From assembly GCF_000337915.1 (NCBI RefSeq), contig NZ_AOJE01000060.1, positions 182,705-246,704 of the forward strand: a stretch of DNA of 64,000 bases. Reading direction: 5' to 3'. The stretch's first letter is position 1. Each line of letters starts with the position of its first letter. A program made the position numbers and the translations under genes. The notes under the pieces are model-generated. The model saw only the letters and a list, made by a program, of their open reading frames with translations, did not search any database and was not told the DNA's origin. This stretch comes from Halorubrum saccharovorum DSM 1137. GTDB lineage: Archaea; Halobacteriota; Halobacteria; Halobacteriales; Haloferacaceae. This document shows positions 17,435 through 58,799 of the stretch, one piece after another.

Positions 17435-18334
17435 CTACACGATCGCGCGGACGATCGCGGCCGCCTCCGACGCGGTCGGTGCGAGGACGTACACGATCGG
17501 CTCGATGCCGACCGCACCGGTCTGATAGAGGACGAGCGTGTCGTTCGGACCGGCGTCGGCGACCGCGTCGGCGACCGCCTCGCTCGTCGGGCGCTCGGGG
17601 TCGAACTCCGCCGTCGGATGGTCGGTAGCGAGCGCCTCGACGGTCTCGGGCGCGTACCGCACGTTCACCGCGCCGCGGGCGGTCGCGCCCGCCTCGCGCG
17701 CGGCGAGCAGGACCGTCGCGACGTGCTCGCTCACGCCGAACTCGGGCTCGCCCGGCACCATCGCCTGCCCCTTCACGTCGACGAGGCGACCGGGAACGGC
17801 CGCCACGTCGTCGATCGTCCGGGCGTCGTCGAGACACTCGGCGACGTTTGCACCGACGTTCGGGATGAGCCCGGCGAAGCCGGAGGCGTTCGTCAGGGTC
17901 CGGAGCCCGCGCCGGACCGACGAGAGGACGCGCTCGCGCTCGCGGAGCCCGCTGTCCGGGTCGTGGACCGAGAACTCCACCTCGGCGTCGGCGAGCGCGG
18001 GCATCGCCTCCTCGTGGAGGTCCGCGAGGAGGTCCCCCTCCTCCAGCCGGCGGATCAGCACCTCGATCTCGACGAGCGCCGCGACCGGGGTCATCTCCCC
18101 CGCGGCGAGCCCCTCGCCCACGCGCTCCACGAGCTCTCGGACGCGCTCGTCGGCGACGATCCGGTCGTGGCGGGCCACGTCGCCGTGGGCGTACTTCGAG
18201 ACGGCCGACTGCGAGATGCCGAGCGCGTCGGCGACCTCGCGCTGGGTGAAGCCGCGCTCGCGGAGGTCCTCCGCCAGCATCGAGCGCACCGTCGGGAGGA
18301 ACTCGTCGACGACGACCTCTTCGATGAACCTCAT
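17435..18334 (-). CDS. thiR: HTH-ThiN transcriptional regulator (ThiR-like)
   Basis: This 299-residue protein combines an N-terminal helix-turn-helix ([23 protein letters not shown], about 29-51) with a C-terminal ThiN-type thiamine-phosphate-binding domain (about 125-299; [48 protein letters not shown]). This architecture is that of archaeal ThiR, a repressor of thiamine genes responding to thiamine phosphates. The ATG at 18334 overlaps the dcd stop as ATGA, so the two are coupled; the longer open frame upstream is shadow of dcd. A candidate target, thi4 with a perfect palindrome in its promoter, is also in this window at 58.4 kb. Confidence 0.88.
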
Positions 18335-57456: not shown

Positions 57457-58392
57457 TTAGTCGTCCGCCGGCGCGGGAGCGTCGCCCGCGGAGAGCCGGA
57501 CCTCGGGCTCGTCGACGCCGAGCTCGTCGAGGGCGGCCTGGGCTGCGCGCTTCCCCGAGACTAACATCGCGCCGAAGGTCGGCCCCATCCGCGGGAGGCC
57601 GTGGGCGGTCGCGACCGCCATGCCGGACGCTATCAGGCCGTCGTGGACGACGCCGGTGTGCTCGACGACCGCGTCCTCGCTCTCCCCGACCCACATCGAG
57701 TCGTGGCCGGGCGAGTCGTGGCCGGGGGCGCCGTACTCGCCGTCGCCGGTCTGGTCCATCCCGGTGTTGTGCTCCTTCGCGTGCTCGATGCCGGGCGCCG
57801 AGAGGACGCCGCGCTCGTCGAGCTTGCTGATCGCGACCGCGTCGTGGCCGGTCGCGTCGATCACGAGGTCGGACTCGACCGCGATGGGGTCGACGCAGGT
57901 GATCTCCCGGGGCAGGGCGTGGACCGGCGTCCAGTTCATCACGATCCCGCCGACGCGGTGGTCCTCGCGGACGACCAGGTCGGTGAACTCCGTCATGTTC
58001 TGGACGCGCGCGCCGGCGTCGCAGGCCGCCTTGATCAGCCCGGAACAGGCCTCGGGGCCGGCGGCGGTGTAGAGCCCGTCCACGTCCTCGACCGGCTCGT
58101 ACTCCACGTCGAGGTCGGCGAGGATCTCTTGGGCCGGGTCTCGGACCGTCACCGTGTTCATCAGGAACCCGCCGAGCCAGAAGCCGCCGCCGAGGTAGTT
58201 GTTCTTCTCGACGATCATCACCTTCACGCCGCGCTCGGCCAGCTCCTTGGCGGCCATCAGCCCGGACGGGCCGCCGCCGAGGACGATCACGTCCGACTCC
58301 GTGAAGTCGAGGAACCCGTCGGTCCACTCGTTGCCGATCGCCTTCGTTACGTCCGTCTCGCTCACGTCGCTGAAGCCGTCGAATCCGTGCAT
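57457..58392 (-). CDS. thi4: Thiazole synthase Thi4 (cysteine type)
   Basis: This 311-residue enzyme makes adenosine diphosphate thiazole for thiamine from NAD and glycine. It has the dinucleotide-binding [43 protein letters not shown], and C-terminal [29 protein letters not shown]. Cys166 in [14 protein letters not shown] lies where eukaryotic and Haloferax Thi4 have the sulfur-donating cysteine, so a single-turnover suicide mechanism is likely, unlike the His-type enzymes of methanogens. The promoter carries a 14-bp palindrome, and a ThiR-type regulator is encoded at 17.4 kb. Confidence 0.93.
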
Positions 58393-58398
58393 ACAACC

Positions 58399-58412
58399 AA
58401 GTAATATTACTT
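58399..58412. promoter_or_regulatory. Perfect 14-bp palindrome in the thi4 promoter
   Basis: AAGTAATATTACTT starts 7 bases before the ATG at 58392 and lies between the likely TATA region (ACTACTAAG, minus, near 58412-58420) and the start codon. A repressor bound here would block a leaderless transcript. ThiR is the best candidate by function. No TPP riboswitch-like sequence is seen. Confidence 0.65.
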
Positions 58413-58532
58413 AGTAGTGAAAGGCGTTGCGGTCGGCGGTCGCTCGTCGCGATCGCCGGGGCGCCTCCTCGCGCTCTCCGGCGTCCCCGACTCGTAGCCT
58501 TTTTACGCGCGCTGGCGGTAGACGCAGTCACT

Positions 58533-58799
58533 ATGGCTGAGGACAAGGCACGAAGCACCGGCAGTGCGGGCCGATTTGGCGCCCGATACGGCCGGGTCTC
58601 CCGCAAGCGGGTCCAGGACATCGAAGAGGAAATGCAAAACGCCACCGTCGACGGCGACGACGTCAAGCGCGTTGGCACCGGCATCTGGGTCAACGAGGAG
58701 ACCGGCGAGACGTTCACCGGCGGCGCGTACCGTCCCGAGACGCCCGGCGGTCGCACCGTTCGCCGCTCCATCCGCGCCGCGCTCGCCGACGAGGAGTAA
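58533..58799 (+). CDS. rpl37ae: 50S ribosomal protein L37Ae, zinc-ribbon cysteines absent
   Basis: This 88-residue ribosomal protein has the L37Ae framework: [25 protein letters not shown], then VGTGIWVN, and [27 protein letters not shown]37Ae normally has a C2-C2 zinc ribbon, with CPxC before and CxxC after the GTGIW segment. Here those positions read [13 protein letters not shown] and [11 protein letters not shown], with no cysteine in the protein. The frame is intact. It is followed three bases after the stop by rpoP, the usual archaeal order, so this is the genomic L37Ae locus. Confidence 0.9.

Follow-up and report, generated by a model that had tools for sequence, protein, structure and literature searches.

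Known thiamine control systems and the thi4 locus

In haloarchaea, thiamine genes are reportedly controlled by the protein ThiR. Work from 2017 by Hwang et al. (J Bacteriol e00810-16) and by Rodionov et al. (J Bacteriol e00743-16) is said to have established that the presence of thiamine lets ThiR act on a conserved operator and repress two leaderless genes of Haloferax volcanii, thi4 and thiC. The same work reportedly describes ThiR regulons in Halobacteria, Thermococci and Crenarchaeota, each lineage having its own palindromic motif, and is said to identify thiamine phosphate as the ligand that ThiR requires for binding. The set of Halorubrum sites described here resembles that regulon in having an HTH-ThiN regulator, a predicted operator at the probably leaderless thi4 and thiC promoters, and genes of thiamine synthesis and transport as targets. 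We know of no difference between the two. That ThiR controls thi4 and thiC in haloarchaea has reportedly been published already. What is added here is the anatomy of four half-sites, which may perhaps have been described there too. A printed haloarchaeal ThiR motif was not found in our literature search, but may nonetheless be in print. The predicted site is real and useful for annotation, and largely expected.

The TPP riboswitch (Rfam RF00059) likewise controls such genes in response to thiamine. It is an RNA element and was not found here. A further point of comparison is the regulator C.Esp1396I, for which no ligand domain is known to us. C.Esp1396I serves restriction-modification control at a bacterial promoter, with GAC half-sites and another spacing; its likeness to ThiR is one of analogy and not of kinship. 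A passage in PMC3758141 describes cooperative binding of a further dimer to the operator, which yields a tetrameric repression complex. As in the mode proposed below for ThiR, helix-turn-helix dimers lie two abreast on adjacent sites, according to the same part of that source. Passages elsewhere describe ThiR as a central regulator of how Haloarcula and Natrinema make and transport thiamine (PMC12029414) and give a predicted ThiR regulon for Pyrococcus furiosus (PMC10746257).

A perfect palindrome upstream of thi4

The window, that is the whole 64-kb stretch of Halorubrum saccharovorum DNA analysed here, contains thi4 (thiamine thiazole synthase, 311 aa) at 57457..58392 on the minus strand. 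The open reading frame was identified by Pfam (PF01946, E 1.5e-58), and the closest Thi4 proteins among the matches listed were 98% identical and came from Halorubrum. A perfect 14-bp palindrome had been claimed upstream of this gene and is present exactly so: AAGTAATATTACTT lies at 58399-58412, without strand assignment, 6 nt 5' of the thi4 ATG (58392). It occurs once in the window. Perfect 14-bp palindromes are common there, with 23 observed and 11.1 expected from the base composition (70% GC); AAGTAATATTACTT is the only one of the 23 with at least 10 A/T. In the whole genome, allowing up to 2 mismatches, only one further site was found (contig C70, 2 mismatches). By itself, this single extra match would suggest that the site does not recur, and a degenerate 26-bp pattern was therefore needed. 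Taken alone, the 14-bp palindrome is unremarkable by chance. It is the comparative evidence that makes the site real.

For this comparison, 80 thi4 loci were used. They are the 80 top-ranking loci among 591 confirmed relatives and hence lie near the window's own gene. L012 and L013 show the same contig twice; of the 80 loci, 79 have a usable ATG and 70 are non-redundant; the locus lacking a usable ATG (L066) was left out of the dyad-offset and shuffle analyses. Across the 70 non-redundant loci, self-complementarity of 26-mers peaked at the 26-mer that ends right before the ATG, with a mean of 7.7 out of 13 pairs and at least 8 pairs in 43 loci. The other 45 offsets gave 2.2-4.9, the next best being 4.94. 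Scoring of all 132 dyad centres placed operator positions 13.5, 20 and 7 on top (0.67, 0.62 and 0.55; mean 0.26). The 20 thiC upstream regions gave the same order of the top three (0.67, 0.62 and 0.58; mean 0.26), with site offsets set by eye and two regions (L092, L103) off register. These three axes together mean two abutting 13-bp dyads.

The full operator, ACTACTAAGTAATATTACTTGGTTGT, covers 26 bp at 58393..58418 on the minus strand, as given by the dyad peak and the pattern match, and its last base adjoins the thi4 ATG. It consists of an upstream unit, ACTACTAAGTAAT (58406..58418, minus strand; dyad centre at operator position 7, rank 3 of 132), and a start-proximal unit, ATTACTTGGTTGT (58393..58405, minus strand; dyad centre at position 20, rank 2 of 132). 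The consensus AYNAC-nnn-GTNRT-AYNAC-nnn-GTNRT contains four 5-bp GTNRT half-sites in two abutting 13-bp dyads, with 16 specified bases. All 16 fit at the window site, which reads ACTAC-TAA-GTAAT-ATTAC-TTG-GTTGT. The centre base of each 13-mer is free (0.05 and 0.08 bit at operator positions 7 and 20). All 8 specified bases were present in 39/70 thi4 loci for the upstream unit, against a background of 0.03%, and in 53/70 for the start-proximal unit. Written as the pattern AYNACNNNGTNRTAYNACNNNGTNRT, the operator matched 58393-58418 with 0 mismatches, and this was the sole such site in the genome. The 14-bp palindrome had thus been seen correctly, but the true element is larger. The palindrome marks the seam of the two 13-bp units and comprises the inner half-sites GTAAT/ATTAC with two flanking bases on each side.

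We analyzed whether symmetric positions change together. The signal of compensatory change over the 26 bp was weak: 562 symmetric matches were observed against a mean of 543 in column shuffles, and 39 out of 2000 shuffles reached as high. Most of the symmetry therefore reflects column conservation. Two genomes of one genus (G001, L132; G026, L131) carried overlapping matches 13 bp apart upstream of thi4, that is three 13-bp units in a row.

Recurrence of the element at thi4 and thiC

At the thi4 start, a match with up to 4 mismatches in the 16 specified bases was found in 77/80 loci. As a control, 160 equal stretches taken 300 and 600 nt inside the same genes were searched. None of these reached that level (0/160), the best having at least 5 mismatches. 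The best match had 0 mismatches at 41 thi4 loci, 1 at 14, 2 at 13, 3 at six, 4 at three and 6 at three. A recognisable operator was not found at three of the 80 loci (L042, L044 and L066). The thiC set comprised 20 loci, with the site in each placed by best match, and from this set a C-terminal piece of a split thiC (L106, genome G051) was left out. Here, up to 3 mismatches were found in 20/20 loci and 0/40 controls. Seven loci matched perfectly, nine had 1 mismatch, one had 2 and three had 3, and all 40 controls had at least 7.

Position relative to promoter and start codon

The element occupies a nearly fixed place at the thi4 and thiC starts. At thi4 it lies flush with the ATG in most loci and ends 3 nt before it in 7/79. 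At thiC the distance is 2 nt in 17/20 loci, 1 nt in one and 3 nt in two. The operators at thiD and at the thiB-type gene extend 2 nt into the ATG, and the one at tenA ends 25 nt before the ATG and overlaps a TATA-like stretch.

Directly upstream of the thi4 operator, at 58419..58432 on the minus strand, lies a probable BRE + TATA element, with a weak TATA (CCTTTC) in this genome. The alignment of the 70 thi4 loci revealed a conserved CCG(A/C)AAC at -14 to -8 and a T at -4 (62/70), both counted relative to the operator. A T-rich, TATA-like column lies 30 nt 5' of the thi4 ATG, a spacing that fits a leaderless start. With BRE- and TATA-like columns immediately upstream, the operator would take up the whole gap between TATA box and start. 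According to parts of PMC4983044, the haloarchaeal TATA motif is TTWT, and 72% of the protein-coding transcripts of Haloferax volcanii are leaderless. Judged from the spacing, thi4 is probably a leaderless gene in Halorubrum saccharovorum.

Further genes carrying the element

Absence of recurrence at other thiamine genes had been set beforehand as a refuting test, and its outcome does not refute the prediction. The site was found at thiC in all 20 loci and, in addition, at thiD, tenA and a thiB-type gene. In the own genome, 14 sites with up to 2 mismatches were detected, and five of them lie at the starts of thiamine genes (thi4, thiC, thiD, tenA and the thiB-type gene), where about 0.002 would be expected. 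Since the pattern had been drawn from the thi4 and thiC sets, a fair test has to look at its other hits. Among genes outside these sets, 3 of 12 sites (thiD, tenA, thiB-type) fell on thiamine genes, compared to 0.0009 expected from a rough Poisson estimate that ignores base composition. The thiB-type gene, for a thiamine transporter, scored high enough for the NCBIfam subfamily TIGR01254 and fell short of the cut-off for the thiB equivalog TIGR01276. The nine remaining sites with up to 2 mismatches were distributed differently: eight lie inside stop-free frames of at least 331 codons and one (L122) is uncertain.

Specificity depended on the mismatch level. A first pattern, made from thi4 sites alone and run at a tolerance of 3 mismatches, picked up just thi4 and thiD and missed thiC. 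With the final pattern, the 3-mismatch level was no longer specific, yielding 94 sites in the own genome versus 14 for a reversed control pattern. This excess is probably codon-driven, because eight of the nine non-thiamine sites at the stricter level lie in the long stop-free frames. Therefore, 3-mismatch sites were excluded from the gene set. In 60 genomes of the family, 93 sites with up to 1 mismatch were found, as against 5 for the reversed pattern; 50 genomes had such a site and 10 had none. The 30 loci listed (one per genome, 30 genomes) comprised 17 at thi4, 4 at thiC, 4 at thiB-type genes, 2 at tenA and 3 others. They were identified by reading the N-termini, with profiles used for tenA and the thiB-type genes; one of them (L130) was identified only as a solute-binding protein (Pfam).

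At thiE, the evidence was partial. Using only the 18 strong ThiE matches (L179-L195 and L087), up to 4 mismatches were found in 11/18 loci and 2/36 controls, and the own genome has 4. The best match, with 3 to 6 mismatches, ended in the start-codon region (ATGAAT or ATGACT) in 13/18. An operator at thiE is no more than suggested. A site for autoregulation was not found before thiR or before the gene upstream of thiR, where the best match had 7 mismatches. Operator, conservation, position and gene set are observed directly in the genomes compared.

A separate sequence, GTGACCATGTGGTACCACGGCGTCGT, was exact at one listed locus (L154, genome G033) and in genome G052, and altered in G015 and G022. 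Because the L154 copy lies inside a 670-codon stop-free frame, it is most likely coding and not an operator.

ThiR as the candidate binding protein

The window had also been predicted to encode an HTH-ThiN protein, and Pfam detected both domains in it. This gene, thiR, lies at 17435..18334 on the minus strand and encodes a 299 aa regulator with a ThiN domain (PF10120, E 4.2e-45) and an HTH_3 domain (E 5.5e-7). A genome search revealed ThiR as the only ThiN-domain protein; the genome lacks a ThiDN fusion, which would have been a second one. It has a separate ThiE (TMP synthase) and a ThiD gene. Since ThiR is the sole ThiN protein and ThiE serves as TMP synthase, a purely regulatory role of ThiR is possible. 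On contig C11 of the own genome (L087), thiE is directly followed by a gene that resembles thiM by eye.

ThiR had a match in 145/145 genomes of the order. The best E-value was at most 1.2e-80 in 144 of these, with the listed rows near full length, and 9.5e-56 in G065. The probable recognition helix, S41QSAVSKY48, was invariant in 21 diverse ThiR members. As a sequence-level observation, the invariant segment SQSAVSKY fits an unchanging half-site. In other families of the order, many genomes had two or three ThiR matches, and the matches listed included at least six near full-length HTH-ThiN paralogues with 43-46% identity (e.g. in G079, G101 and G105).

We also inspected an AlphaFold model of ThiR (mean pLDDT 82, pTM 0.60), in which a helical N-terminal half is followed by the ThiN domain. 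The modelled ThiN domain resembled 2php (Z 22.2, 170 residues, 2.1 A) and 2pb9 (Z 21.8, 165 residues, 2.2 A), in alignments that span mainly ThiR residues 126-299 and barely cover the helix-turn-helix part. A search of the PDB by sequence returned these two ThiN domains and a chain named DBP48 (8tac), and did not find the whole of ThiR. Foldseek hits of the model were weak and presumably concern the helix-turn-helix part (HigBA, E 0.33; C.Esp1396I, E 0.46). Given the gene set, the wide distribution of ThiR and the published precedent, rather than any covariation between protein and site, the 26-bp element is almost certainly the predicted docking site of ThiR.

A model for repression and alternative explanations

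Our best explanation, which we consider very probable, is that the palindrome forms the middle of a 26-bp ThiR operator through which thi4 would be repressed. The original prediction of a ThiR operator gains support from the recurrence at thiamine genes and from the lack of a riboswitch, but its 14 bp have become 26 and the idea itself is not new. In this model, the four GTNRT half-sites would occupy the gap between TATA box and start, from roughly -26 to -1. When thiamine is plentiful, ThiR dimers would sense it, probably as thiamine phosphate, via the ThiN domain. Sitting side by side on the two dyads, they would keep the transcription machinery from assembling or escaping. Under thiamine shortage, ThiR would leave, and thi4, thiC, thiD, tenA and the thiB-type gene would be expressed together. 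Four parts of this model are inferred: that ThiR binds the site, that it does so as two dimers per operator, which ligand it senses, and that the start is leaderless in this species. The result is a precise operator, open to testing, for the control of vitamin B1 genes in haloarchaea, with the site corrected from 14 to 26 bp and its unit set at 13 bp, and it names a candidate regulon of five promoters in one Halorubrum-type genome. It would also illustrate in a simple way how an XRE-type repressor could close a leaderless promoter in archaea, namely by occupying the DNA between the TATA box and the start codon.

An element acting as RNA, be it a stem or a riboswitch part, is very improbable. 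The original prediction had stated that no riboswitch is apparent, and this agrees with our searches: an Rfam scan of the window gave no family at gathering score, and a permissive scan of 58200-58620 gave no TPP riboswitch, the four sub-threshold matches all belonging to other families. Moreover, the site adjoins the ATG of thi4, a probably leaderless gene, and the motif offsets vary between genes (1-3 nt at thiC, 25 nt at tenA, 2 nt into the ATG at thiD and the thiB-type gene). A chance palindrome in an A+T-rich promoter is harder still to believe. The 23 palindromes of the window do make any single one cheap, but against chance speaks that this site is conserved, keeps its position and recurs at thiamine genes. 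More consideration, though still little credence, is due to an operator of another thiamine-responsive or global regulator in place of ThiR. In favour of it, some genomes of the order have a further HTH-ThiN paralogue, nearly full length and 43-46% identical. However, the low-mismatch sites fall mostly on thiamine genes, the own genome has a single HTH-ThiN protein, ThiR is widespread with an invariant probable recognition helix where the half-sites are conserved, and ThiR control of thi4 and thiC has reportedly been shown in Haloferax volcanii.

ThiR could sit on the operator in more than one way. From the symmetry, the 13-bp repeat and the three-unit promoters of G001 and G026, the four half-sites probably represent two dimers side by side. 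The more far-reaching version, to which we give even chances, is a modular operator of head-to-tail 13-bp dyads, usually two and sometimes three, each taking one XRE-type dimer, with cooperative binding and a sharp switch. Against this stands a single ThiR dimer that spans the entire 26-bp dyad and uses the outer half-sites as extra contacts. The 26-bp centre, 13.5, has the top dyad score at thi4 as well as at thiC, which speaks for it. A single dimer, however, gives no need for the 13-bp sub-dyads at 20 and 7 to rank second and third, and does not account for the three-unit thi4 promoters. The weak analogy to C.Esp1396I, which places two dimers on tandem sites (Foldseek E 0.46), points away from it as well. 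We regard the single dimer as unlikely, while the most serious of the rivals. Were the modular operator true, cooperative filling of 26-39 bp from the TATA box to the leaderless start would act as a sharp thiamine switch. Its strength would be tuned by the number of units, the quality of the half-sites and the overlap with the start codon, so that thi4 and thiC would be strong and thiD, thiB and thiE weak.

Distribution of thiC in the family

The thiC gene itself was patchy, being found in 20 of the 60 family genomes, and in G051 it was present as two overlapping pieces (L106 and L107). The many relatives without thiC may perhaps require the pyrimidine precursor from outside.
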